A stretch of DNA of 38,265 bases. Source: Massilimicrobiota sp. An134 (GTDB taxonomy: Bacteria; Bacillota_I; Bacilli_A; Erysipelotrichales; Coprobacillaceae). Positions 2,271 through 34,651 of this stretch are shown here, piece after piece. Position 1 is the first letter of the stretch, and the number at the start of each line of letters is the position of its first letter. The stretch spans positions 1-38,265 of the forward strand of contig NZ_NFLH01000024.1 in NCBI RefSeq assembly GCF_002160815.1, given 5' to 3'. The notes beneath the pieces are model-generated. The model searched no databases, was not told the origin of the DNA, and saw nothing but the letters and a program-made list of their open reading frames with translations. The position numbers were made by a program, and so were the translations under genes.

Positions 2271-4010
2271 TTAATTTGAAAACTTATAAATTGACAATCC
2301 TTTATTAGAATTTCCAAATGTTTTTATTTTTTTTACTCTAATTTTTTTATTTAAATTTTCCTCTATATTATTTTTTGTTACTTCTACATAATAATCATTT
2401 GCTGATACAAAAAATATATTATCTCGTAATAAGTCTTCCCAAAAAAGCTGATTTAAACCATTTGCTTTTAACTGTTTGTAATAAAGTTCTGAATAAGTAT
2501 ATGAACCACCAGATACCATAGTATTGCTCGGTTTTTCATTTGGAAAAACTTTAAATGGATCTCTATTTATTGTAGCTACGCTAAAATCATAAACATAGAA
2601 GTTATTTGGATGTTGCACTGCATATTCTTCAAAAGAATCAAATTCTTTTTGTCCAATACTTGTCTCTGTCTGTGTATCTAAATATTCTTGTGTTATATAA
2701 ATAGATTTTATGCTAAGCAATATACACATCGTACTTATAAGGATTGCTACTATCTTTAAATATTTAGCAAAATTTTTATTTTGTAAACGAGCAAAAAACA
2801 TTAGTAATAGAAAAAAATTTGGAACAATCAAAGATATAAAACTTCTTAGCGGTAATCTTCCCCTAATCGCCAAGATAACAAATAAAGTTAATGTAACTAT
2901 TTCCAAAAAAACAATAAATATTTTATCAACATTATTTTTCGAAAGAAAAATAATACTGAATATTAATCCTATTGTTAATATTATCGAAACTTGTGCATAA
3001 GTATTTTCACATATTAAGCTCTCAGATAGCTCAATCGCATCATTAATTGTTTCTTTAGTATTAACAGAATATTCATCAGTTATTCTCTTTAATGAATACT
3101 CATTTATATCTTTATCAAAATATAATAAACACAAAGTTGCGCTATATGTATTCTCCGTCCAATTTACAGAATTATAAAGAGCTTTGTTTTCTTCATAAGA
3201 ATCATGTTGTTTATAATCCATATATTTTACTCGATAATCATTATATGAATTATATGCTTGCGCTATATCATTATCATTTTTTATATTTACACTTATAAAT
3301 TTTAATGAAAAACAAGATATTACAGTTAAAACTCCTAACACAAAAATTGATATATTTTTTTTATTTAACAGTTTTTTATCAAAGACAAAGTTATAGTACA
3401 TTTTATATAAACAAGCAAATCCAAAAAAGAGCATTACACAATACCAAGATAAACTCCTTATCATAAAGCTTATCAATAAAGCTATAAAACAATATATGTA
3501 TGATATTGTGTGAGTAAATTTATCATCATCTTTCTCTAAAACTAAGATTACTGAAATTGCTGATGTTCCTATTATTGCAGATGTTGTAGTAAATTGTAAC
3601 GCAACAAGTGGATATAAAAAAATTGAAAACAATAATGTAATGTGTACGAATATTGGAAAGAAACTATAGTTGCAGCCTTTTTTATAAATTAATTTATAAT
3701 AACATTTAAATATTACAACAATAGAAAAAAATAAAGATACCACATGAAATAATCCATACCAAGGAATTTTTCCATTTAACTCGTATAAAAAACTTATAAA
3801 GCAGCCTAGAAAATAATTAATAAAAGGTTGTTCCGGATTTGTAATCCCTGTTGCATATCCTGCTAAAGCATATAATATTCTCGAATCATCATTTGTTGAA
3901 AAAATTAATTCTTTAGTGAGAATTACAAATGTGAAAAAAATAAATGTAATTGAAAATGACAATAACCATTGCCCTTTTTTATGTTCTAATATATCTCTAA
4001 TTTTTCTCAT
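2271..4010 (-). CDS. Multi-pass membrane glycosyltransferase, GT-C/GtrII-like, last gene of the operon
   Basis: A 579-residue protein with roughly ten to twelve hydrophobic segments over residues 15-435 and a soluble C-terminal part (about 440-579). An acidic pair, Asp41-Asp42, follows the first membrane segment, the position where lipid-linked-sugar-dependent GT-C enzymes carry catalytic acids. It is a paralog of the 584-residue protein at 15667-17421: both have the acidic pair and then an FLYE...WYxLF stretch. AAGGAG sits 7 bp before the ATG. It lies downstream of two small flippase-like genes and an ArnC/GtrB-like transferase, so I infer that it moves a sugar from undecaprenyl phosphate onto a surface glycan outside the membrane. 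The family call rests on topology and context. Confidence 0.6.
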   Translation of the reverse strand: MRKIRDILEHKKGQWLLSFSITFIFFTFVILTKELIFSTNDDSRILYALAGYATGITNPEQPFINYFLGCFISFLYELNGKIPWYGLFHVVSLFFSIVVIFKCYYKLIYKKGCNYSFFPIFVHITLLFSIFLYPLVALQFTTTSAIIGTSAISVILVLEKDDDKFTHTISYIYCFIALLISFMIRSLSWYCVMLFFGFACLYKMYYNFVFDKKLLNKKNISIFVLGVLTVISCFSLKFISVNIKNDNDIAQAYNSYNDYRVKYMDYKQHDSYEENKALYNSVNWTENTYSATLCLLYFDKDINEYSLKRITDEYSVNTKETINDAIELSESLICENTYAQVSIILTIGLIFSIIFLSKNNVDKIFIVFLEIVTLTLFVILAIRGRLPLRSFISLIVPNFFLLLMFFARLQNKNFAKYLKIVAILISTMCILLSIKSIYITQEYLDTQTETSIGQKEFDSFEEYAVQHPNNFYVYDFSVATINRDPFKVFPNEKPSNTMVSGGSYTYSELYYKQLKANGLNQLFWEDLLRDNIFFVSANDYYVEVTKNNIEENLNKKIRVKKIKTFGNSNKGLSIYKFSN

Positions 4011-4021
4011 GTTAATGCTCC

Positions 4022-4363
4022 TTATACTGAGAAAACGATAATTCCTACAACCATAATTGACAAACCAAGTAATTTTTGTTTTGTTGGAATTTCTTTTAAA
4101 AAAATTCGACTTACAAGTGTAACTAAAATGAAACTACATGAATTCCATACTGGAGCATAAGAAACCGGAACAACTCTATGCGCAATTAGTGAACAAAGTG
4201 TTGATACAAACATCATTCCATAACCAATAAAAGTATAAATATTAACATATTGCCATATAATTGAACTGTAATTTTTTATAGCTCCTTTTTTTAAAATTAA
4301 TTGAGATATTGAAGATATAAAAATACCTAACAACATTATTAAATAATACCAATAATCAGCCAT
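4022..4363 (-). CDS. Small EmrE/ArnE-ArnF-like membrane protein, subunit 1
   Basis: 113 residues with four predicted membrane segments (about 5-23, 38-58, 67-87, 95-112), the size and shape of the small multidrug resistance / ArnE-ArnF group. A SQLILKKGA stretch near residue 20 is typical of this fold. The gene overlaps the preceding, related gene by 8 bp, and a GGTGGTGA ribosome site precedes the ATG. In the Arn pathway ArnE (111 aa) and ArnF (128 aa) together move undecaprenyl-phosphate-aminosugar across the membrane. The tandem arrangement next to an ArnC/GtrB-like enzyme suggests the same job here. A drug exporter is less likely in this context. Confidence 0.72.
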   Translation of the reverse strand: MADYWYYLIMLLGIFISSISQLILKKGAIKNYSSIIWQYVNIYTFIGYGMMFVSTLCSLIAHRVVPVSYAPVWNSCSFILVTLVSRIFLKEIPTKQKLLGLSIMVVGIIVFSV

Positions 4364-4712
4364 TAGAAGTCACCACCAAATAAACACCTACTAATATAAT
4401 TGCAGCTCCAATAATCATATTTATGGTAATAGTTTCATTAAATATTAAAAAACCTAAAATCATTCCCCAGATCATGGATACTGGTTTATTACTATAGGCA
4501 GTAGATAGGGGAACTCGTTTTAAAATCATTTGCCATGCAATTGCATAACACCCCAATATACAGATTGAAACTCCAAAATAGAATAAAAATTTTATTGATG
4601 GAATCGTTTCTAGTGCAGCCACCTTATTGAAAACACCTGATAACGAGTAAAAGAAAACAGCAATTTGTATGATAACAATTTGCTTAACTGAAATATTCAT
4701 CTTTTTTTTCAT
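4356..4712 (-). CDS. Small EmrE/EamA-like membrane protein, subunit 2
   Basis: 118 residues with four hydrophobic segments. The stretch AYSNKPVSMIWGMILGF followed by NETIT matches the third and fourth helices of EmrE-like proteins. AAGGAG lies 7 bp before ATG 4712, which favours it over the in-frame GTG at 4715. The start codon overlaps the stop of the transferase gene by one base (TGATG), so translation is probably coupled. It likely pairs with the 113-residue neighbour as a heterodimeric flippase for an undecaprenyl-phosphate-linked sugar. That role comes from gene order and size, not from a substrate-specific motif. Confidence 0.72.
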   Translation of the reverse strand: MKKKMNISVKQIVIIQIAVFFYSLSGVFNKVAALETIPSIKFLFYFGVSICILGCYAIAWQMILKRVPLSTAYSNKPVSMIWGMILGFLIFNETITINMIIGAAIILVGVYLVVTSNG

Positions 4713-5647
4713 CACATTTCTCCTTCTTTTTTTATAATTTCTCTAATTTCGAATTGTGGTTGGTTGCTAATTGTAAGATAAATTCTACCTATATATTCTC
4801 CGATAAGTCCTAGCATAATCATGATCAATCCTCCAATAAATAAAATAATAGTAATTAGAGAAGTATAACCGACTAAGATATTTGGAAATAATAGTTTTCT
4901 TATAAAAAGTACAATTCCAAAAATAAATCCTGTTATAGAGAATATAACCCCTAAAAAAGAGGATAATCTTAATGGGAATATAGAGAAATTAATCATTCCA
5001 TTTAACCATACTTTAAATCTCTTAGAAAAATTATAACCAGACTTTCCCACAATACGTTTATTTTGTTTAACTTTTATACTGGTAATTTTTCCAGCAATCT
5101 GATATAAATATCCAAAAATAGATGGGAAAGGTGATAGATATTTCTTTAAACTTTCAATACACATTCTATTTATTGCAAAATAAGAAGAGGAAACAGCACC
5201 TTTAGGACGCTTACCTGTTATTTGAAATAACTTACTAGAAATAGCACTAGTTAATTTATTAATTTTTTTTGTTTGTTTAACTGAGAAATCAGCACTTACC
5301 AAATCATAACCTTCTTCTATTTTTTGAATTAATTGCGGTAAATATTCAATAGGATGCTGACCATCATCGTCCATATATATTAAACAATCACTATCAATTT
5401 GTTTTAAACATGCCATTCTTGCCGCAGCTTGACCCCAATTTCTAGATAAATCAATACCCATTATATGTGAATCTTTTTGACATAACTCTTTGATAATTTC
5501 AAAAGTATTATCTGGAGAACAGTCATTGATTAAAATAATTTCATAATCATAACGATTTAATTCCTTAAATTTTGATGTAATCTGATCTACGACGATTGAA
5601 ATTGTTTTTGAAGATTTATAACATGGAATTGCTACTGTTACCTTCAT
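4712..5647 (-). CDS. ArnC/GtrB/DPM1-type polyprenyl-phosphate glycosyltransferase (GT2)
   Basis: 311 residues. The GT2 catalytic domain occupies about 1-220, with NDCSPDN at 41-47 and the metal-binding acidic run MDDDGQHP at 92-99. Two membrane helices (about 225-250 and 260-290) anchor the C-terminus, as in ArnC and GtrB. These enzymes move a sugar from its nucleotide carrier to undecaprenyl phosphate at the inner membrane face. The gene is 2 bp from the preceding ATP-grasp gene, with GAGGAA upstream of the ATG. The likely substrate is the dTDP-aminosugar made by the genes before it. Dolichol-type mannose or glucose transfer cannot be excluded from sequence alone. Confidence 0.87.
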   Translation of the reverse strand: MKVTVAIPCYKSSKTISIVVDQITSKFKELNRYDYEIILINDCSPDNTFEIIKELCQKDSHIMGIDLSRNWGQAAARMACLKQIDSDCLIYMDDDGQHPIEYLPQLIQKIEEGYDLVSADFSVKQTKKINKLTSAISSKLFQITGKRPKGAVSSSYFAINRMCIESLKKYLSPFPSIFGYLYQIAGKITSIKVKQNKRIVGKSGYNFSKRFKVWLNGMINFSIFPLRLSSFLGVIFSITGFIFGIVLFIRKLLFPNILVGYTSLITIILFIGGLIMIMLGLIGEYIGRIYLTISNQPQFEIREIIKKEGEM

Positions 5648-5649
5648 AT

Positions 5650-6942
5650 TTATTGTTCCTCGCTTTTCAGTATTTTTTTATAATCAAATTTACCAATAAT
5701 CATACTTTCATCATTATCAGATATAACATCAAATTTTTCATATACTTTTTCAACAGCTTCAGCCATCAATTCATGAGTAGGAGTTTTCAATGTAACTCTA
5801 CATAGAATTTGTCTTTGTGTTCCTATATATTTATCAGTTATCTCTTCGCCACCATAGTACCATTGAGAAACATTTAGCACTTCTTTCATATTGTTTAATT
5901 CATCAACACCTATAACTTTTTTTATTTTTCCTAATTTTCCTAATATTGATAAAGTGCAATATACGGATTTAAAATTTGGATTAGCAAGTTGAGTGATATC
6001 TTTTTCTCCTGTTTCACCTGTTAATGCATAATTAATCATCATATCCATAGTACTAAAATTGTTTTCCTCTTTTAAAATGTTATATTGTTTAGCCCCATTA
6101 AAACGCAATCCCATCTCATAAAAAGGAAATGAATTTTCTAATGCGAAGCCTTGAAGAAATAAAGTTCCATTTTGTAAATTTATGCTTTTAAACATTTCAA
6201 TTACTTTTTCGTTTTGATATTTTTGATATTTTTCTAAATGTTTAGATGGATAAATATACGCTAAAGGTAATTTCATGAATTGACCTTCACTTTCTTTTAA
6301 GTATCTATCATGCATTGCAGTTAATACTACATTTCCATTCTGTATCGCGTAGCTTACTCCAATCTCATCTGCTGTAATATATTTTTCAATGATAACTAAT
6401 TTTTTTGTAGAATAATTTAAAGCTCTATTATAAGCAGTTTTTAACTCATCATAATTATTAGCAATGGAAATTCCTCCTCCACCGCTACCATCCACAGGTT
6501 TTACAATGACTGGGAAGTATGATGAGTCATTTTCATTAAAATCAGACATGTCATATTCTTCTACAACAGGAACATTATATTTTCGGCATAAATTTTTAAA
6601 TGAGTCCTTGTTAGAGCATATATTCCATTGTTCACGATTACAATAAAAAGGTAAATCCAATCTTTCACATAAAGATATAACTCTTTCAATTGAATACTCA
6701 CTAGATCCAGTAAAAACACCATCTACTTTTTCTCTTTTTATAAGTTTTTCAAGCTCATCTAAATCTGCTGTGCTTACATTTTCATTTTGATCTGAATATC
6801 TTTTAGCAGGACATAAATTAACATCTAAATTTCCTGTTACAATTGTATATACCCCTAACTGACGCGCAAATTTTACTACGTCCTCTGCAATAGGATTAAC
6901 TCCGGCTAAAACTAATAAACGTTTTCCTTGTAATTTTTTCAT
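5650..6942 (-). CDS. ATP-grasp ligase C
   Basis: 430 residues with the three-part ATP-grasp layout. A Rossmann-like N-terminal domain starts at KRLLVLAG; the central part has a glycine-rich loop (PVDGSGGGGISI, about residue 155) and an EKYI stretch; a metal-binding FYEMGLRFNGA lies near residue 275. ATP-grasp enzymes join a carboxylate to an amine or thiol through an acyl phosphate. It is clearly paralogous to the next gene upstream (6939-8204), sharing YCN.xQW.xCSNK and FYEMG.R.N, so the pair arose by tandem duplication. The genes overlap by 4 bp (ATGA). I infer an amide-forming step on the aminosugar pathway; the acceptor and acid are unknown. Confidence 0.82.
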   Translation of the reverse strand: MKKLQGKRLLVLAGVNPIAEDVVKFARQLGVYTIVTGNLDVNLCPAKRYSDQNENVSTADLDELEKLIKREKVDGVFTGSSEYSIERVISLCERLDLPFYCNREQWNICSNKDSFKNLCRKYNVPVVEEYDMSDFNENDSSYFPVIVKPVDGSGGGGISIANNYDELKTAYNRALNYSTKKLVIIEKYITADEIGVSYAIQNGNVVLTAMHDRYLKESEGQFMKLPLAYIYPSKHLEKYQKYQNEKVIEMFKSINLQNGTLFLQGFALENSFPFYEMGLRFNGAKQYNILKEENNFSTMDMMINYALTGETGEKDITQLANPNFKSVYCTLSILGKLGKIKKVIGVDELNNMKEVLNVSQWYYGGEEITDKYIGTQRQILCRVTLKTPTHELMAEAVEKVYEKFDVISDNDESMIIGKFDYKKILKSEEQ

Positions 6943-8204
6943 TTTTCCATCCCTTTCAACGGTAATAATAGATCATTTCCATTTTCGTCAATTACATGTA
7001 ATTGGCTGATAATTTTATCGATTTTTTTATGTAGCTCTTCTTCTGTTGAAGAAACAATTTGAATTCTTGCAAAATTTTGATCTAATGTTCCTTCGGTTTT
7101 GATATGATCACCAATATGATAAAATTGAGTTATATGTATAACTTCTTTATCCTTTAATATGTCTTCTAAACCAATAATATTTTTTATAATACCTGATTTT
7201 AATATAGGAGCTATTTCACATGCATAACCTTTAAAATTTTTATTTACATCTTTAATTTTCTGATTCCCAAATTTACCTTCAATTGCATATTGAATCATAT
7301 ATTCTAGTGGACTAAATCCATTAAAATATTCAACAAATTTATACTCCATAGTTGCATTTAATCTATAACCCATTTCATAAAAATAAAAATCTTTTCCATC
7401 AAAAAAAGATTCCATGAAGAAAACACCATTTTCTAAACCAAATTTTTCAAACATTTTACATACTTTTTCATTAGTAGTTTGTAAATAAACATCTTTATGT
7501 TTTGAAGGATGATAGAAGAAAGTAGGTATAGGTGATCCATTTAGATCATTTCTTGTTATTCTATCTGATAAAGTCATTAATTCAACATGACCATCTTGAA
7601 CAATGTAATAAACTTCTACATTATCACATTGCATATATTTTTCTAGTATAATCTGTTTAGATTTTGAGTTATCTAAAGCTTTTTTTATTCCAGCATTTAA
7701 TTCATTTCGATTTCTACAAATTGAAATCCCATGCCCACTATAACTATCTACCGGTTTAATAATTAAAGGAAAATATTCATCCGATATATGAGAACAATCA
7801 TGAGAATCAATAAAATACTCAGGTACTGTATTAACTCCGTATTCTTTACATAATTGCTTAAAACGAGATTTGTTTGAACATGTATCCCATTGCATCATAT
7901 TACAATAAACTGGTAAATTATTTTGATTACATATATTAATCATATTTTTGATATTAAATTCACTTGCACCTGTAAATACTCCATCAATATGATTTTCTTT
8001 AATATATTTGCTTATATTTGTATAATCATCTGTACTATAGTTAATAATTTCATCTGCATATTGTTTAGATACGCCACCTTCTAAATTATCTGTTATTGTA
8101 ACTTTTAATCTCATTTTTTTTGCTGTTTTGACAACATCTAATGTTGATAAGGTTCCACCTAGAATAAGAATGTTTTTATTATTTTGATAATTGATGTTCT
8201 GCAC
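6939..8204 (-). CDS. ATP-grasp ligase B
   Basis: 421 residues starting at GTG 8204, with AAGG six bases before it. N-terminal nucleotide-binding fold (NILILGGTLSTLDVV), glycine loop IIKPVDSYSGHGISI and a C-terminal FYEMGYRLNAT metal site. It is similar throughout to ligase C, but its loop has SYSGHG in place of GSGGGG, so the two may use different substrates. It overlaps the ketopantoate-reductase-like gene by 26 bp, so the two are probably co-translated and may act in succession. Two related ligases in a row suggest two successive couplings, for example a two-residue acyl chain. That is inference. Confidence 0.8.
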   Translation of the reverse strand: MQNINYQNNKNILILGGTLSTLDVVKTAKKMRLKVTITDNLEGGVSKQYADEIINYSTDDYTNISKYIKENHIDGVFTGASEFNIKNMINICNQNNLPVYCNMMQWDTCSNKSRFKQLCKEYGVNTVPEYFIDSHDCSHISDEYFPLIIKPVDSYSGHGISICRNRNELNAGIKKALDNSKSKQIILEKYMQCDNVEVYYIVQDGHVELMTLSDRITRNDLNGSPIPTFFYHPSKHKDVYLQTTNEKVCKMFEKFGLENGVFFMESFFDGKDFYFYEMGYRLNATMEYKFVEYFNGFSPLEYMIQYAIEGKFGNQKIKDVNKNFKGYACEIAPILKSGIIKNIIGLEDILKDKEVIHITQFYHIGDHIKTEGTLDQNFARIQIVSSTEEELHKKIDKIISQLHVIDENGNDLLLPLKGMEK

Positions 8205-9108
8205 AATTTACCTTCTCTCTAGCTTTGACAATATAATATAAAATTTCATTAACAGGGGTAGGGACTCCACATTCTTTTCCCAATTTCATAACTGTTCCCC
8301 CAAAATAATCTATCTCAGTTTTTCTTCCTGCTTCTAAGTCTTGAAGCATTGATGTCTTTTTTTCTGGTGGATAATGAATTAAAACTTCAATCATATCATC
8401 TTTATCTTTTGTAGTTAAATGTATTTCTTTCTTCTTTGCGATATCAACAATTTCTTGCATTGCACAATTCAATGCTTTTTTTATTTCAGGAAATTCCCCA
8501 AAATACTTAAATTTTGCTTGAGTAAGTAAAGAAATTTGATTTGCACCTATATTGACCATCCATTTTCTCCACAGCATTCTTACCATATCTTCATAAACAT
8601 GATATTTTATTTTATTTTTTTCAAATATATCTATCACATATTTGACATCATCAGAAAACTCAATATTTTCTTCTTCTCCAAATTGTATTTCTCCTAAGGT
8701 TTGAAATGTAATATTATCGTCAATTCTATTTGCATCTGTTCTCATCACTATTCCATATAAAACTTTATTATTTGGAAATTTTTCTTTTAAAAAATCAACA
8801 GCTGTAACACCGTTTAATAATGATAAAATAATAGTGTTATCATCAATGACAGATTGAATATCTTCAATTGAACTTTCTAAAGAATAGTTTTTTACCAAAA
8901 CAAGCAAAAGTTTTATTTTACCATGATTTTCTCCAGTAGATACATTAGGGTAAAGCACTTCATTATTGACCTTGATTCCATTCTTTAAAAGTCTATTAGC
9001 TCTTTCTCCATTTGCAACAAATGAAAATTTTTGAATATTATTTTTTATAAAAACACTACCATACGCTGCGCCAACTGCTCCTGCGCCAATAATAGCTATT
9101 TCATCCAT
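8179..9108 (-). CDS. Ketopantoate reductase (PanE/ApbA)-family oxidoreductase
   Basis: 309 residues, the usual family length. The N-terminal NAD(P) motif AIIGAGAVGAAYG (5-17) and the C-terminal helical signature are both present: RMLWRKWMVNIGANQISLL, then GRKTEIDYFGG and the GVPTPVNE stretch. Family members reduce 2-keto acids to 2-hydroxy acids; PanE itself makes pantoate for coenzyme A. Its position between ATP-grasp genes in a sugar operon argues that it makes, or helps make, a hydroxy acid (or a modified acid) for attachment to the aminosugar. A plain pantothenate role is possible but would be misplaced, since no panB or panC is nearby. GAGGAG precedes the ATG. Confidence 0.82.
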   Translation of the reverse strand: MDEIAIIGAGAVGAAYGSVFIKNNIQKFSFVANGERANRLLKNGIKVNNEVLYPNVSTGENHGKIKLLLVLVKNYSLESSIEDIQSVIDDNTIILSLLNGVTAVDFLKEKFPNNKVLYGIVMRTDANRIDDNITFQTLGEIQFGEEENIEFSDDVKYVIDIFEKNKIKYHVYEDMVRMLWRKWMVNIGANQISLLTQAKFKYFGEFPEIKKALNCAMQEIVDIAKKKEIHLTTKDKDDMIEVLIHYPPEKKTSMLQDLEAGRKTEIDYFGGTVMKLGKECGVPTPVNEILYYIVKAREKVNCAEHQLSK

Positions 9109-9121
9109 TTTTATTCTCCTC

Positions 9122-10270
9122 TCAATCTCTTTTCTTAAATAAACTATAAGCTAGGTCTTTATCTCTAGTTGTTCCTATGAAATAACCAAATCTTGTTGAA
9201 CTATCAACAATTTCATGAGAATTTATATTTTCAATCTCACTTATAAATTTAATACTATCAGGATTGTTTTCTTTAAATAATGTCATACATTTAAGATCAC
9301 TATCATTGAAAATAAATTTTATAAATGCATAATTGATTAAAGGAGGTTGAACAATGATTGGTTTATTTCCGCAAGCTACATCAATAACCATCTTAATATA
9401 ATCATGAGAAGTTGAGAGATTAACTAAATGAGACCCTATGCAATCTCCTCCCATTCTTGCTCCAATTTCAATGATTCTCATCTCTCCGTTAGGAGTTACT
9501 TTAAATTCACAATGAGATGCTCCATAATTTATTTTAAGAGCGTCTAAAGCCTTAAAAATATCCTGTGTAAAATTTTTTATTTGATTATTAGATAGATCTG
9601 ATGGTTCAAGATGTCCTGTTTCTATAAAATGTGGTGCCCCTGTTGTAAATTTCTTTGTAAAAGATAAACATGTATGTTTTCCTTCAAAAGAAATACATTC
9701 ACAACTATATTCGTCTCCCTCAATGTATTCTTCTACAATAGCGCAATTCTCAAATGAATTCTTTATAGCTTCACTGATTGCAGAATTCATTTCTTTAAGA
9801 TTCTCTATTTTTGTAATTCCTCTACTTCCAGAACGATCAGTAGGTTTTACAATAAGCGGATAAGTAAAATCTTCAATTTCTTTTTCTTGAACTAATCTAT
9901 CAGTTTTAATAAACTTGGGAACAGGGATACTATTATTTTGAAAAGTTTCACGCATCAAAAATTTATTTGTTGTAATTAAATCTGATTCTTTAGGGTTACA
10001 TACTAAACCAAGATTTCTTGCAATGTAATTCACAGTTAAAACTGCTAAATCTGAACCTATAGATACTACACCCTTAGGTTGAATTTTTTTACATATATCA
10101 AGTATTTCTTGTTTTTCTGTTATACTAATTGGATAAAAATAATCCGCAATTTTTTTTCCAACTGCACCTTCTTCCCAGGCGAAAACATGTGTTTCATAAT
10201 TTAATGATTTTGCCTTTTGGATCAAAGGTAATTGAAATTCTCCTGCACCAATAATAACCAGTTTTTCCAT
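9122..10270 (-). CDS. ATP-grasp ligase A
   Basis: 382 residues. It has an N-terminal dinucleotide-like fold (VIIGAGEFQLPLI), an ATP-grasp loop IVKPTDRSGSRGITKI near residue 140, a VEEYIEGDEYSCE strand and a well-conserved metal-binding IIEIGARMGGDCIGSHL near residue 270. It is closer to the PurT/PurK/carbamoyl-phosphate-type ATP-grasp pattern than ligases B and C are, so it is probably not part of their duplication. It follows the aminotransferase gene by 1 bp, with GGGAG before the ATG. It is placed to act first on the newly made 4-amino sugar, or on the acid to be attached. The substrate cannot be read from the sequence. Confidence 0.82.
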   Translation of the reverse strand: MEKLVIIGAGEFQLPLIQKAKSLNYETHVFAWEEGAVGKKIADYFYPISITEKQEILDICKKIQPKGVVSIGSDLAVLTVNYIARNLGLVCNPKESDLITTNKFLMRETFQNNSIPVPKFIKTDRLVQEKEIEDFTYPLIVKPTDRSGSRGITKIENLKEMNSAISEAIKNSFENCAIVEEYIEGDEYSCECISFEGKHTCLSFTKKFTTGAPHFIETGHLEPSDLSNNQIKNFTQDIFKALDALKINYGASHCEFKVTPNGEMRIIEIGARMGGDCIGSHLVNLSTSHDYIKMVIDVACGNKPIIVQPPLINYAFIKFIFNDSDLKCMTLFKENNPDSIKFISEIENINSHEIVDSSTRFGYFIGTTRDKDLAYSLFKKRD

Positions 10271-10271
10271 T

Positions 10272-11396
10272 TTACAATACTCCCTCGATTGCTTTTACAA
10301 CATACGTAGCATCTTCTTTTGTCATATCTGCATATAATGGTAATCTAAGTAATCGTGCTGCAATATCTTCTGTGATAGGGCAATCTTCTGGTTTATATCC
10401 TAATTTCAATCCATATGGCGAAGAATGTAATGGAACATAACAAATATATGCAACGATGTCTTTTTCTTTTAATTTTTTAATTAGATCATCTCTTATTTCT
10501 GCAGTAGGTAATAAAATATTAAACATATGTGCATTATGTTGTATACCTTCTGGAATGATAGGCAAACGTAATTTTTTATTTTTTTCTAAATCTTGTAATC
10601 CTTCATAATATGTATTCCATACTAACATTCTTTTTTCCATAATCTCATCATATCTATCCATTTGAGCACTTAATAATGCTGCTAAAAGATCCGATGGAAG
10701 AAATGATGAACCAATATCATGCCAAGTATATTTATCAACAAGACCTCTTAAAACATTTCTTCTATTAGTTCCTTTTTCACGAATAATTTCAGCTCTTTCC
10801 ATGTATTTTTCTTCATTAACGATGATTGCTCCACCTTCACCCATTGCATAATTTTTTGTTTCATGGAAACTATAGCAACCAAACTCAGTCATTGTACCAG
10901 CCACTTTTCCTTTGTAAGTTGAACCAACAGCTTGTGCTGCATCTTCAATAATGAATAAATTATATTTATTAGCAATTTCAATGATTTTATCCATTTCACA
11001 TGGAATACCAGCATAGTGGACAACATAGATTGCTTTTGTCTTATCAGTAATTAAATCTTCTATTTTATTCTCATCTATATTAAAAGTATCTTCTCTTATA
11101 TCACAAAAGACTGCTTTAGCACCTCTTAATAAAAAAGCATTAATAGTAGATGAGAATGTAAAAGAAGGGGCGATGACTTCATCACCATCTTGTAAATCAG
11201 CTAAAATTGATGCCATTTCTAAAGCTGTTGTTCCTGATGTTGTTAACAACATATTCTTTATTCCAAATCTCTCTTGAAATTGTTGGTACACTCTATTTGT
11301 ATATTTTCCATCACCTGATAAAATACTGTTATGTAACGCATCAACAATATATTTTTCTTCTAATTGAGTAATGGTTGGTTTGTTAAACTTAATCAT
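10272..11396 (-). CDS. dTDP-4-keto-hexose 4-aminotransferase, DegT/WecE-like, PLP-dependent
   Basis: 374 residues, matching WecE/FdtB/ArnB length. The PLP lysine is Lys181 in SFHETKN, the motif of the WecE (RffA) branch; Asp152 in EDAAQ is the ring-nitrogen aspartate. The enzyme replaces a 4-keto group of a dTDP-6-deoxyhexose with an amine, usually from glutamate. Placed after a 2,3-dehydratase and a reductase, it probably aminates a dTDP-4-keto-2,6-dideoxyhexose, giving a 4-amino-2,4,6-trideoxyhexose. Direct amination of dTDP-4-keto-6-deoxyglucose, as by WecE, remains possible. A purine-rich GGGGGGAAAT site precedes the ATG. The next gene is 1 bp away. Confidence 0.9.
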   Translation of the reverse strand: MIKFNKPTITQLEEKYIVDALHNSILSGDGKYTNRVYQQFQERFGIKNMLLTTSGTTALEMASILADLQDGDEVIAPSFTFSSTINAFLLRGAKAVFCDIREDTFNIDENKIEDLITDKTKAIYVVHYAGIPCEMDKIIEIANKYNLFIIEDAAQAVGSTYKGKVAGTMTEFGCYSFHETKNYAMGEGGAIIVNEEKYMERAEIIREKGTNRRNVLRGLVDKYTWHDIGSSFLPSDLLAALLSAQMDRYDEIMEKRMLVWNTYYEGLQDLEKNKKLRLPIIPEGIQHNAHMFNILLPTAEIRDDLIKKLKEKDIVAYICYVPLHSSPYGLKLGYKPEDCPITEDIAARLLRLPLYADMTKEDATYVVKAIEGVL

Positions 11397-11398
11397 TT

Positions 11399-12361
11399 TT
11401 ATTTCCCCCCTAAATCTCTTATTTGATTAACTAAATAACTTTGTATTTTTAAATCATCGTATAGTTTTTTTCTTTCATTTTCGTCTCTTAATGCATTCCA
11501 AAATACATTAATTGATTTAGAAAAATGATTATCTTCTTTCAATACAAATTCTTCTACTTGATTATTCTTTGTTATAGTTAGTATTGGTTTATTACCTGGT
11601 GGTGATGTGAAAATTCTATTCGTTGATAATTTTCCTTTTGACCCTATAATTTCTAAAGAGCATGAATAGTCATTATCCATTCCAAAAGCTCCTTGAAAAG
11701 TGACATTATCATTTGAAGCAGAAAAATCTCCAAACAAATCAATATCATGTTCAATAGAATTATAAAGATGTGCACATTCTATATGTAGATTTGTTCCTAA
11801 TAATATTGTAGCCAATTTGACTACATATCCACCTGCATCCAACAAGGCTCCACCGCCTAACTTTTTAGAATAACGAAAATCATTCGATTGTCGTTTTGGA
11901 AAACAGAAGTTGGATCTTATGAGTCTTAAATCTCCTAATTCTTTATTTAACAATACATTCTGTATTTCTGAAAGTTGAGAATGGTATTGGAACATGTAAT
12001 TTTCTTGTAATACGAGATTTCTTTCATTAGCAATTTTAATGAGTTCTAATGTATCTTCATAATTTGTAGTCAGTGGTTTTTCAAGAAAAACATGTTTATT
12101 TTTCAAAAGGGCTTTTTTTGCATATTGATAATGTAATGCTGGTGGTAAAGGTATATATAAAACTTCAATTTCTGGATTGTCGATTAAATCATCAAAACTA
12201 TCGTATATATCTATATGAAATTCATTTTGAAACTTTTCAACTTTAGATTGATCATATTCTTCGGCTAAACCAACACATTGAAAATTCTTATTTTCCATAA
12301 GAGCTGGCAAAAACATTCTATATGCGATATCAGCGGCTCCAAGTATCCCAATTTTTATCAT
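11399..12361 (-). CDS. Gfo/Idh/MocA-family reductase, probable sugar C-3 ketoreductase
   Basis: 320 residues. N-terminal NAD(P) domain (ILGAADIAYRMFLPAL) with the family EKP motif (HVFLEKPLTT, about residue 93) and a GGGALLDAGGY stretch in the substrate domain. Members such as KijD10 reduce the unstable 3,4-diketo-2,6-dideoxyhexose released by NDP-hexose 2,3-dehydratases. This gene directly follows such a dehydratase; its start overlaps the dehydratase stop by one base (TAATG). That adjacency is the main reason to call it a C-3 ketoreductase, since the family as a whole handles many sugars. The stereochemistry of the product cannot be predicted. Confidence 0.85.
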   Translation of the reverse strand: MIKIGILGAADIAYRMFLPALMENKNFQCVGLAEEYDQSKVEKFQNEFHIDIYDSFDDLIDNPEIEVLYIPLPPALHYQYAKKALLKNKHVFLEKPLTTNYEDTLELIKIANERNLVLQENYMFQYHSQLSEIQNVLLNKELGDLRLIRSNFCFPKRQSNDFRYSKKLGGGALLDAGGYVVKLATILLGTNLHIECAHLYNSIEHDIDLFGDFSASNDNVTFQGAFGMDNDYSCSLEIIGSKGKLSTNRIFTSPPGNKPILTITKNNQVEEFVLKEDNHFSKSINVFWNALRDENERKKLYDDLKIQSYLVNQIRDLGGK

Positions 12362-13749
12362 TATTCTACCTCCAATAAAGACATTAAATTTCTTAATTGT
12401 ATATTACATACATTATTAAATTGAATCATTTTATTTATCGTATGAAAGTCTAACCATATGTACTGATCTGTAATATTGATATCATTTTCTTTGATATCGA
12501 TAATGACATTTCTATTTTGTTCATGATAAAATCTTCCACCTTCTTCAGATAAAAGGGTATCAAAAACAATATTCTTTTCTTCTTTTAAGTACTTAAAAAA
12601 GACATCTTCTACAATGTCTCTCTCTTTTTTATTAATTTCGTTTGCTTCAAATTGAATGGATGGTCCGAATTCAACAGTATCAAAGCATCCAATTTCTTTT
12701 TTTAGGTGAACTAAATATTCACGTTTTGAATTATGAATACGTGTTATCAATCCAAAAATAGCTATACCAGTAGCTTCAAATAAAGGTTGAGTCCAATGTG
12801 TTACTTCACGTCCATCAATTTTAATATCACAAAATATGACTTTAAAATTCGCATTAGAATTAGTTATTTCATTGGAAGTGAAGTTCCATGTCTTTAATTC
12901 ATCTAATTTTACAAATTTATATTTTTTTTCTTCAAACATTTTTATATTATTCAATTTATGAAATGCTTCACTCATTTTACTAGAATTATCATCAAAAACT
13001 GAATTCAAAAATTCTTTATTTTTATATTGATTGAATAAAAAATCTCTTTGCTTATCATTTTGAAAAGGGAAAATCGGTAAACAAGATATAACAGTACGCG
13101 TATCCATATTGACTATGTTATCAAATTTCATTAATCTTTTTATTTGTCCTAATGTCATCCATTTAAAATTTTTATGTATCTCTATATCTTTATCAACCAT
13201 AATAACAATGTTTCTATTTCTTTTATGAAAAAAACGAGAAGATTGTTCTGATTGTATCTGATCTACAATAATATGTTTTGGATCTACATCTATAAAATAT
13301 TCTAAATATAATGGTTTTTTTCCACCGTGTTTTTGTGTGAAATTACTTTTTGTAGCTTGAATAGTTGGTGAAATTTGTATCTGATTAATGTTTCCTGGTT
13401 CTATTTTAGCTTGCATTAAAAAATTGAGCTGATTGTCTATAACAGAACATATAATACCTAAAAAACCAATCTCATTTTGAAAAATAATAGGTTGTTCACT
13501 AACAACTTTATCATCAATATATTCCTGAATTCCCTGAATATAAAAAAAACTATTATTTTTATTTGTAATGATTCCTTTATCATGATCATAAAACCAATAA
13601 TTGCTATCATCTAATTTGTTTTTAGTAATAGTGACTTCAATATTCTTATTAAGAAAAGCTATCCATTCATCAATTTCTTGATTAGTAGAAACATTACCAT
13701 TTTTATCTATCCATGAATTAAAGAGAAGATTGTTCCACTGTTCTTTCAT
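12361..13749 (-). CDS. dTDP-4-keto-6-deoxyhexose 2,3-dehydratase (EvaA/TylX3-like)
   Basis: 462 residues in the usual two-repeat form of the NDP-hexose 2,3-dehydratase family. The repeat is visible as [15 protein letters not shown] near the end of the first half and [15 protein letters not shown] in the second. Each is followed by a W...I..M..F(D/N)N(I/V).N...R stretch. The enzyme removes water across C2-C3 of dTDP-4-keto-6-deoxyglucose, the committed step to 2-deoxy sugars. I start at ATG 13749 because GAGGG sits 8 bp before it; the longer frame to 13770 has no matching ribosome site. The gene overlaps rfbA by 32 bp. This family is best known from antibiotic sugars, so its use in a capsule-type locus is notable. 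Confidence 0.88.
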
Positions 13750-14623
13750 ATGTACTTCCCTCAACTGCAATTCTTCTTAAGTATTTCCCATATTCTGTTT
13801 TACATTGTTCTTCAGCCAATTTTAATAGTTGTTCTTTATTGATATATCTTTTAACATATGCAATTTCTTCGATACATGAAATATATAATCCTTGTCGCTT
13901 TTGAATGCTCGCTACATACTGTGAAGCTTCTAGTAAATTATCATGGTTTCCTGTATCCAACCACGCTGTACCTCTACTTAAAAGTTCAACTTTTAATTGT
14001 TTTCTTTTAAGATATTCATTATTAACAGAAGTAATTTCCAATTCTCCTCGAGCAGATGGTTTAATTGTTTTTGCAATTTTAACAACATCATTATCATAAA
14101 AATATAAGCCTGGAACTGCATAATTTGATTTAGGATTCTGTGGTTTTTCCTCAATAGAAATAACATCTTTGTTTATATCAAAAGAAACAACTCCATATTC
14201 TCTTGGATCATTAACATAATATCCAAATATCAAAGCTCCATTTTTAATATGACTTGCTTTTTGTAAAGTTTCTGTAAAATTGGTTCCATAAAAGATATTA
14301 TCTCCCAATATTAAACATACACTATCATCTTCTATGAATTCTTCACCAATAATAAAAGCTTCAGCTAAACCATTTGGTTTATCTTGAATTGCATATTCAA
14401 TATATATACCTAATTGACTTCCATCTCCTAATAATTCTTCAAATACAACAACATCTCTAGGAGTAGAGATAATAAGAATTTCTTTAATACCTGCTAACAT
14501 TAAAGTTGATAATGGATAATAAATCATTGGTTTATCATATACAGGTAAAATTTGCTTTGATACTGATTTTGTGAGAGGATATAATCTTGTCCCTGATCCT
14601 CCAGCTAAAATGATTCCCTTCAT
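13718..14623 (-). CDS. rfbA: Glucose-1-phosphate thymidylyltransferase
   Basis: 301 residues, the normal length of RfbA/RmlA. The N-terminal nucleotidyltransferase signature [13 protein letters not shown] (residues 6-18) is intact and is followed by [15 protein letters not shown]. It condenses glucose-1-phosphate with dTTP to dTDP-glucose in the cytoplasm, the first step of dTDP-sugar synthesis. It lies 2 bp after rfbB and overlaps the 2,3-dehydratase gene. No rfbC or rfbD is present in the window, so the dTDP-glucose appears committed to the 2-deoxy aminosugar branch rather than to rhamnose, at least locally. Confidence 0.97.
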
Positions 14624-14625
14624 CT

Positions 14626-15663
14626 TTATTGTTCTCCCTTTTCTAATCTATTTTTGTACATTTTATCAAAATAGTTTTGATATTCTCCTGAAAGAATGTT
14701 CTGCCACCATTCTTTATTATCGAGATACCATTGAATTGTCTGTTGGATTCCTGTATCAAAGTTATATTTTGGTTTCCATCCTAATTCTGTTTCCAACTTT
14801 GTTGGATCAATCGCATATCTTAAATCATGTCCTTTTCTATCTTCTACATACTTGATTAATGATTCTGGTTTATTCAATGCTTTTAAGATTGTTTTAACAA
14901 CCTGAAGATTTGTTCTTTCATTATGTCCACCTACATTATAAACTTCTCCAACTCTTCCTTTTCTAATGATTAAATCAATAGCCACACAATGATCATAAAC
15001 ATGTAACCAGTCTCTGACGTTTTCTCCTGTTCCATAAACTGGTAATGACTCATCAGCTAATGCTCTAGAAATCATTAATGGAATAAGTTTTTCTGGGAAA
15101 TGATATGGTCCATAGTTATTAGAACATCTGCTGATTGTCACTGGTAAACCATATGTTCTATGGTATGCTAGTACAAATAAGTCAGCAGCAGCTTTAGATG
15201 AACTATATGGACTAGATGTATGTAATGGTGTTTCTTCTGTAAAGAATAAATCTGGTCTATCTAATGGTAAATCCCCATAAACTTCATCAGTTGATACCTG
15301 ATGATATCTTTTGATTCCATATTGATTACAGGCATCTAGTAATGTTGTTGTTCCCATAACGTTTGTTCTGACAAAACTTTCAGGATCTTCAATACTTCTA
15401 TCAACATGTGATTCTGCTGCAAAGTTGACAACAACATCAAACTTTTCTTTTTCAAATAAATCAAAGATAAACTTTCTATCAGCAATATCACCTTTGACAA
15501 ACTTATAATTAGGTTTTCCTTCTACTGGTTTACATGTTTCTAAATTCCCAGCATAAGTTAACAAATCTAAATTAACAATCATATCTTCAGGATATTTATT
15601 CACCATATAATGAATAAAGTTCCCACCAATAAATCCTGCTCCACCTGTGACTAATATTTTCAT
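14626..15663 (-). CDS. rfbB: dTDP-glucose 4,6-dehydratase
   Basis: 345 residues, an extended short-chain dehydrogenase. The NAD motif [12 protein letters not shown] lies at residues 5-16. The catalytic residues are visible: Thr125-Asp126-Glu127 in STDEVYG, and Tyr153 with Lys157 in SPYSSSK. It converts dTDP-glucose to dTDP-4-keto-6-deoxyglucose, the branch point for deoxy and amino sugars. It sits 3 bp after the 584-residue membrane protein gene and 2 bp before rfbA, and is the first of the nine sugar-modifying genes that end at 5650. Confidence 0.97.
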
Positions 15664-15666
15664 TAT

Positions 15667-17421
15667 TTACTCCCCCTTAGCACTTACAATTTTCCATATT
15701 TGATATCCATCGATTTCTTTTATAAATACTTTTTTCTTTTTCGTATCACTTCTTTGATTAATAAAACTTATTATTTCATCAATATAGTAATTTTCTATTA
15801 AATAAACATTCTCGTGATTTAAAAGGGCGAATGTATCTTCAACATTTTGGTTTTCTAGTATCTTTACAACTGTTGGATGTTTCGTATCAGCTCCAGATAA
15901 AAAAAGACTATTTGTAAATATATTAGGTTCTACAATATCAAGAATATTGTAATTAAGATATATACTTTGTACTGTCGTTTGAAATCCTAAAAGATAGATA
16001 TTATCACGATGTCCTATAATTTCATTGAATAAATTGTGTTGATTATTCTCTTTATTGAATGTTGTTCTATATTTTGACAATGAATTATCATTTGCATAAT
16101 ACATAATATCAAACACAGAACTTGAATCATTTTGATAATATAAAGGTATTCTCAATAGAACCATCATTGACAACAAAGTAAGTAAAAAACTTTTATAATC
16201 TTTATTTTGTTTTTTAGCAAAATAAATCATTAAATATATTAAATGAGTGATGACTGTAAATAATATGACACTTTCAATTCTATATACCAGTCTGCCTCGA
16301 TACAAAAGAACATAAAACAAAGATACAAATCCTAATATATATATAAGATAAATAAATAACATTTTTCTTTGATATAACAAAAATAAAATATCGATAATAA
16401 TAATTGTCCATACAAAAATGTAATTCATATAGTTTCGATCTAATAATTTTATGAGTGTATCTTTATATCCAGTTCTATGCTCAGAATGATATTTTTCTAA
16501 TATTTGATTTAAATCTTTGAGTTTTTCTTTAGAAAAATAACTGGTATCTCCAAAATTCCAATGAAGAAATGTCAGATAATCAATTTCAGTAATACCAATT
16601 TTTTGACATTCTTCTTTTATTGCATAATAATCAGGATGAGGATAATCAACTAATTGAGCTCGCAATTGATTATATTCTTTATATTCCGAATAATCAGAAT
16701 GACTGTTTACATACATCTTTTCTGTAATTGTGTTTCCTATAAAACATCCTAGTACTGATATACAGCATATAAATATTTTTAATAGGTTTTTTTTGATTTT
16801 CATTCTATATCTATAGATATAGAATAAAATGATCAAAAAGAAAAATGGAAGTGTAATATACAGAGTATACTGTCTAATAAGTAAACCGATTTCTAAGAAC
16901 ATCAATCCTAAAAAAAAATACTTTTTATTAGCCTTCTCAAAAATATATATTATTAATAACAATCCTCCTGCAATAATGGCTATACCAGCAGTTTTTGTAA
17001 ATTGCATTAACAAATACAGGTCAGCACTTACAAAAGATAAAAATAAGATATCAAAAGTTATAGTTAATAATGTCTTTTTTTGAGAAAGAAAAATATATGA
17101 TATAGCTGACAATGAAAAAAATATAATAACAATTTGGAATAAACTATACCAATTTATATGGGCATATATTTCATATAGGAATGAGAGTACATAGCCAACG
17201 AAAATATGCATAAACATAATTTCTGGAGATGGTTGATTATTATATGCTCCTGATACTATTAATTCCATTATGAAATCATCTGATGTTTCAAATTTCATTG
17301 TGTGGCTTAATATAAATGGTATTAAACATAATAAATTAAAAATAAAAGATAGTTGTAAAGGACTCAGTTGAAATATTTTATTTTTGATTCGTTCCCATGT
17401 TTTATAAATATAATTCAACAT
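15667..17421 (-). CDS. Multi-pass membrane protein, GT-C-like, paralog of the last operon gene
   Basis: 584 residues with about ten to twelve hydrophobic segments up to residue 430 and a soluble tail. After the first helix it has Asp48-Asp49, then an FLYEIYAHINWYSLF stretch that aligns with the protein at 2271-4010. The two therefore share ancestry and topology. GT-C-type membrane transferases use polyprenyl-phosphate sugars outside the membrane. The start overlaps the mutase gene by 20 bp, and only a weak GAGAG ribosome site is seen. Its position between glf and rfbB joins the two halves of the operon. It could serve the same lipid-linked donor as its paralog, or a different one. Confidence 0.55.
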   Translation of the reverse strand: MLNYIYKTWERIKNKIFQLSPLQLSFIFNLLCLIPFILSHTMKFETSDDFIMELIVSGAYNNQPSPEIMFMHIFVGYVLSFLYEIYAHINWYSLFQIVIIFFSLSAISYIFLSQKKTLLTITFDILFLSFVSADLYLLMQFTKTAGIAIIAGGLLLIIYIFEKANKKYFFLGLMFLEIGLLIRQYTLYITLPFFFLIILFYIYRYRMKIKKNLLKIFICCISVLGCFIGNTITEKMYVNSHSDYSEYKEYNQLRAQLVDYPHPDYYAIKEECQKIGITEIDYLTFLHWNFGDTSYFSKEKLKDLNQILEKYHSEHRTGYKDTLIKLLDRNYMNYIFVWTIIIIDILFLLYQRKMLFIYLIYILGFVSLFYVLLYRGRLVYRIESVILFTVITHLIYLMIYFAKKQNKDYKSFLLTLLSMMVLLRIPLYYQNDSSSVFDIMYYANDNSLSKYRTTFNKENNQHNLFNEIIGHRDNIYLLGFQTTVQSIYLNYNILDIVEPNIFTNSLFLSGADTKHPTVVKILENQNVEDTFALLNHENVYLIENYYIDEIISFINQRSDTKKKKVFIKEIDGYQIWKIVSAKGE

Positions 17422-28407: not shown

Positions 28408-28435
28408 AAAAAAAACAAGAATTGTTTAATTCTTG
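28408..28435 (-). terminator. Intrinsic terminator between the NusG paralog and the polysaccharide genes
   Basis: Read on the minus strand: CAAGAATT (28435-28428), loop AAAC, then AATTCTTG (28423-28416), followed at once by eight T (28415-28408). The left arm overlaps the stop codon of the NusG-paralog gene. It is the only clear intrinsic terminator I find inside the 26-gene run. The stem has just two G-C pairs, so termination may be partial. Confidence 0.8.
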
Positions 28436-28938
28436 CTTATGATTTCTAGTCCTACCTTTGCTGTTGTATCGTTGCCGAAGATATGCAGACTGATATAGGC
28501 AATGCGCTTATGCCTGTCTATCTTCGTTATCATTCCTTCATATCCCTTCAGTGGTCCTTCGCTGATGTGTATCGTTTCTCCCTCGATGAATCCTACTGAC
28601 ATGTCTACCAGATGGTCATCTCCAGCAAACCTCTTTAAAAACTCCACCTCGCCATCCTGCAACGGATAGATGACGTCCTTCTTCTTACCGATGATCTTGG
28701 TGAGATCCGGTATCTTCTTGAGCTCCACATAGAGTTCTTCTATATGCTCAGTAATCATGAAGACATATCCCCGAAAGAGCACGCATCTGACATCCTGCCA
28801 GACTCCTCGAAACTTCTTCCTTGCGACAAACTCGGGAATGAAGCAATCATAAAGAACATCGTCTGAAATAAGAAACCTGCATCTATCGGCTATCTCCCTT
28901 TCATGACCGCTTCGTACCTGCATGACATACCAGTTCAT
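28426..28938 (-). CDS. loaP: NusG paralog, LoaP/UpxY/RfaH-type antiterminator
   Basis: 170 residues. The N-terminal NGN domain starts with NWYVMQVRSGHE and includes FRGYVFMITEH. The C-terminal KOW motif is ISEGPLKGYEGMITKIDRHKR. Such paralogs bind elongating RNA polymerase at a leader signal and let it pass terminators in long operons. It is the first gene of the polysaccharide operon. I choose ATG 28938 because AAGGAGG lies eight bases before it; the upstream ATG 28944 is only two bases from that site. The terminator directly after the gene fits a design in which this protein opens transcription of the genes behind it. The assignment to LoaP rather than another NusG branch is by context. Confidence 0.88.
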   Translation of the reverse strand: MNWYVMQVRSGHEREIADRCRFLISDDVLYDCFIPEFVARKKFRGVWQDVRCVLFRGYVFMITEHIEELYVELKKIPDLTKIIGKKKDVIYPLQDGEVEFLKRFAGDDHLVDMSVGFIEGETIHISEGPLKGYEGMITKIDRHKRIAYISLHIFGNDTTAKVGLEIISKN

Positions 28939-28944
28939 TTCCAT

Positions 28945-32094: not shown

Positions 32095-33058
<964 letters not shown>

Positions 33059-33094: not shown

Positions 33095-34651
33095 ATGGGA
33101 TTATATCTCAATCCAGGAAATGATAGTTTTCAACAGGCACTTAACAATCCTATATATGTAGATAAATCATTGTTAATTAACTATATGAATCAATTGGTAG
33201 GTACTGGCGATAATAAAATATGTGTGTCAAGGCCTAGACGTTTTGGAAAAAGTACAGATGCGAATATGCTTGTTGCCTATTATTCTAAAGGATGCGATTC
33301 TCACAACATTTTTGATTCACTCAAAATCAGTGAAACCGATCATTATTTAAAACATCTTAACCAACATCATGTCATTCATATCAACATGCAAAGTTTTTTA
33401 AGCAATACACATGATATTGATAAGATGATCCAATTATTAACAATAAGAATTTTAAATGAGTTTAAACAGGCTTATTCAATCATTTTCTTTGATGAAACAA
33501 ATCTGTCACTATCTTTAGAAGACATTTATGCATCCACAAAGAATCAATTTATTTTTATTATAGATGAATGGGATTGTATCTTTAGAGAATATAAGCAAGA
33601 TAAAGAAGCACAAAAACAATATCTTGACTTTTTAAGAAATCTATTGAAAGATAAACCTTATGTAGAGTTAGCATATATGACAGGGATATTGCCTATTAAA
33701 AAATATGGAACACATAGTGCCTTGAATATGTTTGAAGAAATCTCTATGATTGATCCGGGATTATTACCTGAATTTATGGGATTTACTGAAGCTGAAGTTC
33801 AAGATCTTTGTATTCAATATAACGTCAGTTATGATGAAATGAAACAATGGTATGATGGATATCATATGACAGATTCTTTATCAACTCTTTCCCCACGTTC
33901 TGTTGTTGCTTCACTTATAAGAAATAGATTTGGAAACTATTGGACATCTACCGAAACTTATGAAGCCTTACAGGTTTATATAGATTTGAATAAGGATGGA
34001 TTAAAAGATAGTGTTATTGAAATGTTAGCTGGTGAAAGCGTTCCAGTACAGACATCATCTTTCCAAAATGACATGACAACATTTGATACCAAAGATGATG
34101 TATTAACACTTCTGATACATCTTGGATATTTAGGATATAACAGCTCAGATCATACATGTTATATTCCTAATAAAGAAGTGATAGATTCTTTTGTAAACTC
34201 AATCAGAAAGTCCAATTGGGAAGAAACAACAAAAGCACTATTAAACAGCCGTGAGATCTTACAAGCAACGTGGAGAGAAGATGAAGAAGCTGTTGCTAAA
34301 TATATTGAAGAGGCCCATTTGAATACATCAATATTAACTTACAACAATGAAAATGCTTTAGCCTATACATTATCTTTAGCATATATTACAGCTAGGGATT
34401 ATTATACAATCATCAGGGAAATGCCCACAGGAAAAGGCTTTGCTGATCTAGTATTCATACCAAGACATGATAAGCCTGCTATGATTCTTGAATTAAAATG
34501 GGATCAAGAAGTCAAGACAGCGATAGATCAGATTAAAGACAAGAAATATCCAAAAGGATTAGAAAAATATAAAGATAACTTACTGATTGTAGGAATCAGT
34601 TATAATAAGAAAACAAAAAAACATACATGTCATATAGAAAAACACCAATAA
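33095..34651 (+). CDS. AAA-ATPase-like / PD-(D/E)XK nuclease-fold protein (DUF1703 type)
   Basis: 518 residues. The N-terminal AAA-ATPase-like domain starts with YLNPGNDSFQQALNN and has a P-loop-like RPRRFGKST (Lys52, Ser53) and a Walker B-like IIDEWD (Asp157, Glu158). The C-terminal DUF1703 domain carries the PD-(D/E)XK signature GFADLVFIP, then MILELKWD (about residues 448-472). These proteins are very common and multi-copy in gut anaerobes; their role is unclear, with mobile or defence functions proposed. AGGTGA lies four bases before the ATG. It is a single-gene unit with its own promoter and terminator. Confidence 0.92.
   Translation: MGLYLNPGNDSFQQALNNPIYVDKSLLINYMNQLVGTGDNKICVSRPRRFGKSTDANMLVAYYSKGCDSHNIFDSLKISETDHYLKHLNQHHVIHINMQSFLSNTHDIDKMIQLLTIRILNEFKQAYSIIFFDETNLSLSLEDIYASTKNQFIFIIDEWDCIFREYKQDKEAQKQYLDFLRNLLKDKPYVELAYMTGILPIKKYGTHSALNMFEEISMIDPGLLPEFMGFTEAEVQDLCIQYNVSYDEMKQWYDGYHMTDSLSTLSPRSVVASLIRNRFGNYWTSTETYEALQVYIDLNKDGLKDSVIEMLAGESVPVQTSSFQNDMTTFDTKDDVLTLLIHLGYLGYNSSDHTCYIPNKEVIDSFVNSIRKSNWEETTKALLNSREILQATWREDEEAVAKYIEEAHLNTSILTYNNENALAYTLSLAYITARDYYTIIREMPTGKGFADLVFIPRHDKPAMILELKWDQEVKTAIDQIKDKKYPKGLEKYKDNLLIVGISYNKKTKKHTCHIEKHQ

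Follow-up and report, generated by a model that had tools for sequence, protein, structure and literature searches.

The stretch of DNA considered here (the window) is a whole contig of 38265 bases, 28% GC, from the 2.56-Mb genome of Massilimicrobiota sp. An134, which a computed estimate puts at 100% complete. On its minus strand, a Wzx/Wzy capsule operon carries genes for three ATP-grasp ligases, named A, B and C below, interleaved with a gene for a reductase resembling PanE. We think it probable that these genes belong to a module that makes dTDP-4-amino-2,4,6-trideoxyhexose, decorates its amine by the combined action of A, the PanE-like enzyme, B and C, and delivers the sugar through undecaprenyl phosphate (Und-P) as a branch of the capsule; which acids are used, in what sequence they are joined and that the sugar travels on Und-P are points that we infer. 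A reading made earlier from the sequence alone (the sequence-only reading) had picked out the three ligases and the PanE-like gene among them, and their coordinates, strand and Pfam domains (ATP-grasp; ApbA and ApbA_C) bear it out. All four genes are intact:

9122..10270, minus strand: ligase A, the widespread core ligase; PF13535; AlphaFold confidence (pLDDT) 93.5; 3vot Z 39.5; 284 relatives
8179..9108, minus strand: PanE-like 2-oxoacid reductase; TIGR00745 205 bits, cut-off 141; Pfam ApbA and ApbA_C
6939..8204, minus strand: ligase B, with the loop SYSGHG; Pfam ATP-grasp; AlphaFold pLDDT 89.6; 3vot Z 35.8
5650..6942, minus strand: ligase C, with the loop GSGGGG; Pfam ATP-grasp; 65% identical to the Longicatena caecimuris copy

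In the scheme we favour, the sugar enzymes would produce the dTDP-linked amino sugar, and A would use ATP to activate an acid, probably an amino acid, whose carboxyl group it would join to the 4-amine in the first amide. From a 2-oxo acid the PanE-like enzyme would make a 2-hydroxy acid. B and C would add to the chain or close it off, and the hydroxy acid is probably a substrate of one of the two. A family 2 glycosyltransferase (GT2) would then transfer the finished sugar to Und-P, two small EamA-like proteins would flip it, and a GT-C-like membrane protein would attach it, outside the cell, as a side branch of the capsule. The operon opens with a LoaP/NusG-like gene (28426-28944); genes for the initial sugar transferase, for glycosyltransferases and for Wzy and Wzx follow, and then comes the ligase module, in which the ligases and the PanE-like gene are flanked by dTDP-sugar pathway genes on one side and by a set resembling ArnC, ArnEF and a GT-C transferase on the other. 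Provided that B starts at its assigned GTG, it overlaps the PanE-like gene by 26 nucleotides, an overlap already seen in the sequence-only reading, and C by 4 nucleotides.

The AlphaFold models of A and B both have as their top structural match, over the full length, the L-amino acid ligase BL00235 (3vot). For A, the next entries are 4dim (Z 36.3) and BacD/YwfE (3vmm; Z 34.2); for B, 3vot scores 4.6 Z units above the runner-up. With C placed by sequence, a fold of the L-amino acid ligase type is well supported by the models, and all three proteins are predicted to be ATP-grasp carboxylate-amine ligases. K103, K142, E180, E255, E268 and R272 are invariant in 42 relatives of A, which shares the E-x-G-x-R metal/phosphate motif of 3vot, and the nucleotide- and metal-binding K, E and R positions are invariant also among 12 B/C relatives. 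One presumed metal position holds E in B and Q in C and several relatives; carbamoyl-phosphate synthetase has Q at the corresponding position. The likeness to L-amino acid ligases has its limits, in that identity is about 20%, the setting is a sugar operon and the predicted acceptor, at least of A, is a sugar amine. A Pfam scan detected no LAL_C2 domain (PF18603) at the C-terminus of A, B or C; the domain is found in second ligases of two of the related loci described below (L113 and L108).

B and C are 37% identical over 412 amino acids (E value 1e-89), while A is more distant (23% to B and 27% to C, each over part of the length); both this distance and the difference in glycine loops are as the sequence-only reading described them. 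Its view of B and C as tandem paralogs holds in part: they are adjacent and fall in one clade, but in a tree with 12 relatives they are not sisters, and a direct tandem duplication is a possible origin that a tree test among these relatives did not reject (p-AU 0.22).

Just upstream of A lies the aminotransferase to which the earlier reading had pointed as a source of a free 4-amine, and with it a complete set of sugar genes:

14626..15663, minus strand: RmlB, dTDP-glucose 4,6-dehydratase; TIGR01181 494 bits, cut-off 365
13718..14623, minus strand: RmlA, glucose-1-phosphate thymidylyltransferase; TIGR01207 475 bits, cut-off 361
12361..13770, minus strand: NDP-hexose 2,3-dehydratase, EvaA-like, for removal of the C2 hydroxyl; PF03559 394 bits; PDB 4j7g (EvaA), E value 1e-67
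11399..12361, minus strand: sugar 3-ketoreductase, Gfo/Idh/MocA family; top PDB match 3rbv (sugar 3-ketoreductase), E value 6e-56
10272..11396, minus strand: dTDP-sugar 4-aminotransferase, WecE-like; NF008687 541 bits, cut-off 375; 6blg, E value 3e-119

The aminotransferase score exceeds the equivalog cut-off for WecE, the dTDP-4-amino-4,6-dideoxygalactose transaminase, and the closest solved matches of the ketoreductase are sugar 3-ketoreductases that we take to be of the KijD10 type. From the chemistry of these families, the product of the five-gene pathway should be dTDP-4-amino-2,4,6-trideoxyhexose, a predicted assignment that homology and synteny support well.

The order to which the host belongs also contains Longicatena and Candidatus Stoquefichus. 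In Longicatena caecimuris DSM 29481, which belongs to another family of the order, the 13-gene module is complete (L038, identical to L059), with the order rmlB-rmlA-dehydratase-ketoreductase-aminotransferase-A-PanE-B-C-GT2-EamA-EamA-GT-C shared with the window. Because this order recurs at 42-81% identity, the association of the genes is not due to chance, and conservation of the module is well supported. A 2,3-dehydratase search of the order, with hits in 22 genomes, also yielded a Stoquefichus locus with A and one B/C-type ligase without PanE (L043), and one in which A is the sole ligase (L041); both have the pair of small membrane proteins. Every intact locus with A has this pair (four loci: window, L038, L041 and L043), as against one (L053) of the 13 loci that have no A-type ligase and adequate flank. 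Since the loci are related, we attach no p-value to this contrast. A decayed copy of the module occurs in the window's own genus (L055 in G001, 4568-12956), where the dehydratase has in-frame stops, the GT2 is shortened and A is split into pieces of 136 and 247 amino acids; this suggests loss of the module in a close relative of the window genome.

The PanE-like gene is the most conserved member of the module, at 81% identity between the window and L. caecimuris, and among 311 genomes of the order no other genome has a close relative of its product. K182 and E265 sit within conserved family motifs as the catalytic K and E, and the nearest solved relatives carry the name 2-dehydropantoate 2-reductase. 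The TIGR00745 score, above the cut-off, would suit a housekeeping pantothenate enzyme that is in the operon by chance. We give that explanation almost no credence, and rejected it, on the grounds that the gene is the only PF08546 member of the complete genome, that its copy at the corresponding place in L. caecimuris is 81% identical, with no other close relative among the 311 genomes, and that neither panB nor panC was found in the genome, by searches that, with PF08546, panB and panC in turn, were positive in 8, 11 and 9 of 14 control genomes. As the genome has no panB and panC, the PanE-like gene does not complete pantothenate synthesis, and a place for the enzyme outside that pathway is well supported by homology and synteny. 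The simplest reading is of a dedicated 2-oxoacid reductase that would supply the ligases.

On the far side of the ligases are four genes that the sequence-only reading had left out:

4712..5647, minus strand: GT2 glycosyltransferase, ArnC/PgfS-like, probable Und-P sugar transferase; PF00535; ArnC 164 bits and PgfS 165 bits, both below cut-off
4356..4715, minus strand: small EamA protein, ArnE-like flippase subunit; PF00892; ArnE model 33 bits, below cut-off
4022..4363, minus strand: second small membrane protein, probable flippase partner; 3-4 hydrophobic segments; an ArnE-like gene always adjoins it in relatives
2271..4010, minus strand: large membrane protein with about 11 transmembrane segments, candidate GT-C transferase; no Pfam match; position kept in L. 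caecimuris, 46% identity

Together, these proteins would account for attachment of the sugar to Und-P, its flipping and its transfer outside the cell. The gene types resemble ArnC, ArnE, ArnF and ArnT of lipid A modification, in which Und-P carries a 4-amino sugar that a pair of small EamA proteins flips and a GT-C enzyme then transfers on the outside. The window differs from that pathway in its scores, in serving a Gram-positive capsule rather than lipid A, and in a sugar that is dTDP-linked and predicted to be acylated; we regard the set as one that would work like the Arn pathway and not as a member of it. A second large membrane protein, of 584 amino acids (15667-17421, no Pfam match), is a distant relative of the 579-residue protein at 2271-4010. 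Each has about 11 hydrophobic segments, and both may be GT-C transferases.

Relatives of A extend well beyond the order. A profile search with an alignment of A found 284 loci in a contig collection, unlike a single-sequence search of the same collection, which gave no matches. We kept 80 loci, nearly all from gut Firmicutes, and counted neighbours in the 68 with enough flank. Within 6 kb of A, an aminotransferase occurs in 57/68, both small EamA genes in 51/68, a GT2 in 49/68 and a second ligase in 15/68. One bin, labelled Saccharibacteria, has RmlB and an A-type ligase joined in a single reading frame (L101:8996-11149; 717 amino acids, stop-free), a fusion that ties the A-type ligase directly to dTDP-sugar synthesis. 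These associations bear on the possibility that the product of the ligases is a free peptide or an antibiotic of the bacilysin kind, and that their place in a capsule operon is due to chance. BacD and L-amino acid ligases are indeed among the closest structures, but another family keeps the ligases in the same order with sugar and export genes, A is found fused to RmlB, and in gut Clostridia genes of the A type are repeatedly neighbours of sugar aminotransferases, so we judge a free product very unlikely.

A different sequence of events would have B and C first build a free di- or tripeptide-like acid, for which the PanE-like enzyme makes one block, and A load the whole acyl group on the amine. 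This would agree with a fold shared with dipeptide ligases that use free amino acids, and with A being the only ligase in most loci and the one tied to the sugar genes, including rmlB. Yet in most A loci neither B, C nor any other second ligase was found, so that the usual acid of A would be a simple one, and we consider preassembly of the chain unlikely.

Loci with extra ligases bear companion genes that vary from locus to locus. These include OCD-family reductases (L081, L118, L128), hexapeptide acetyltransferases (L113, L092), a ligase-GNAT fusion (L103) and an RraA-like aldolase with an amidohydrolase (L077). In Mediterraneibacter massiliensis (L083:12594-19455), a B-type ligase is followed by an aldo/keto reductase, a phosphonopyruvate decarboxylase scoring above cut-off, and then a C-C bond lyase and fumarase halves; here the decoration is possibly a phosphonate or unusual acid. 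In seven loci, mostly from Blautia (L108, L115, L119, L120, L132, L134, L136), A is fused to a domain dependent on pyridoxal phosphate, and a second ligase comes next. The top NCBIfam matches of this domain in L108 are D-cysteate sulfo-lyase and the coenzyme M enzyme XcbE, both below cut-off, and a sulfonated amino acid is a possible decoration in such loci. An apparent 712-residue fusion of A in L128 was set aside, as the frame seems to have been extended spuriously at its N-terminal end. The pattern of companions fits a constant first ligation by A followed by variable extension or capping, with the PanE-like enzyme as one of the cap-making enzymes.

The closest known system, likened here by description rather than by direct sequence comparison, is the sulfonated peptidylamido-glycan of Clostridioides difficile type B flagellin (CDR20291_0244-0247). 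There, a terminal Fuc3N is acylated with a glycine-alanine-taurine unit (PMC5207245), and mutants in the ATP-grasp gene 0245 or the OCD-family gene 0246 lose the peptidyl-amido unit (PMC5207246). Both systems combine an aminotransferase, a PF13535 ATP-grasp enzyme and a reductase-family gene, and both have an amino sugar with a peptide-like chain, predicted in the case of the window. They differ in the sugar (an amino-dideoxy, 3-amino sugar made with FdtB in C. difficile; a 4-amino, 2-deoxy sugar here), in the enzymes (one ATP-grasp with a FemAB protein and an OCD-family enzyme; three ATP-grasps and PanE) and in delivery, since the C. difficile unit sits on flagellin with no Und-P set described, whereas the window has a set of the Und-P type. 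No OCD or FemAB domain was found among the window genes scanned with Pfam. The loci that combine A, B and an OCD gene look like a 4-amino-sugar counterpart of the C. difficile system. By this comparison, the PanE-like protein could be an imine, opine-forming reductase, in which case the cap would be no hydroxy acid but an N-carboxyalkyl group resembling the taurine-alanine unit. OCD-family reductases hold a similar slot in L081, L118 and L128, and an N-alkylated alanine is known from C. difficile (PMC5207245); the window enzyme, however, has a standard PanE fold and keeps the catalytic K and E motifs of the family, its nearest solved relatives bear the name 2-dehydropantoate 2-reductase, and we hold an imine reductase to be rather improbable and retain the hydroxy acid. 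Campylobacter jejuni Cj1438 also makes an amide on a capsule sugar with an ATP-grasp domain, as we predict for the window, its C-terminal domain joining an amine to a C6 carboxylate (PMC11800379); the polarity of that amide is the opposite one, and the fold is TupA-like.

Several points weigh against the scheme as a whole. A, B and C score far under all NCBIfam cut-offs, and so belong to unassigned families as far as sequence models go; PurK, PurT and biotin carboxylase share the fold class of A and B; and the substrates of all three ligases are only those that we infer. The aminotransferase directly adjoins A in just 32/68 loci. In the delivery set, the GT2 and EamA scores lie below the equivalog cut-offs (164 against 529 bits for ArnC, 33 against 92 for ArnE), and the GT-C assignment was made solely from hydropathy and position. 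The earlier proposal of an acyl, hydroxyacyl or aminoacyl chain on the sugar nevertheless gains indirect support from the complete sugar pathway, the 3vot fold, the RmlB fusion and the acid-making and acetylating companions, while its acids and their order stay conjectural. As far as capsules go, its statement that no described pathway has this combination stands in the open literature, where our searches turned up no report of dTDP-amino sugars being acylated by ATP-grasp ligases (subscription papers were outside the scope), but the related flagellin system of C. difficile has been described. Peptidyl- or acyl-amido sugar synthesis as such is already known; the version proposed here, with three ligases, PanE and Und-P delivery, is new.

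The evidence argues well for a pathway family that is widespread and has so far gone undescribed. To the fuller form of this proposal we give slightly less than an even chance: a large family of surface-glycan pathways of gut Firmicutes in which a core ATP-grasp ligase would load Fuc4N-type sugars with amino-acid or peptide-like chains, swappable enzymes would supply unusual caps (hydroxy acids or OCD products, perhaps also sulfonates or phosphonates) and delivery would be Arn-like, on Und-P, with the window as a three-ligase version capped by a hydroxy acid. Amino-acid chains on bacterial sugars are known chiefly through glycan chemistry, with few enzymes assigned, and the module is a small set of genes, open to testing, that would build them in common gut bacteria. 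As the set is complete in cultured L. caecimuris, its glycan can be analysed directly, and the acid-making gene that adjoins the ligases could help to predict the decoration across many other genomes.

The remaining observations concern the surroundings of the module. The LoaP/NusG-like protein that heads the capsule operon represents a frequent arrangement in long Firmicutes operons. Beside the operon lies a gene for a protein with AAA-ATPase_like and PDDEXK_9 domains (33095-34651), near which is an open reading frame that is resolvase-like by sequence (32095-32691). An HTH_38 protein is encoded at 196-1560 of the window.

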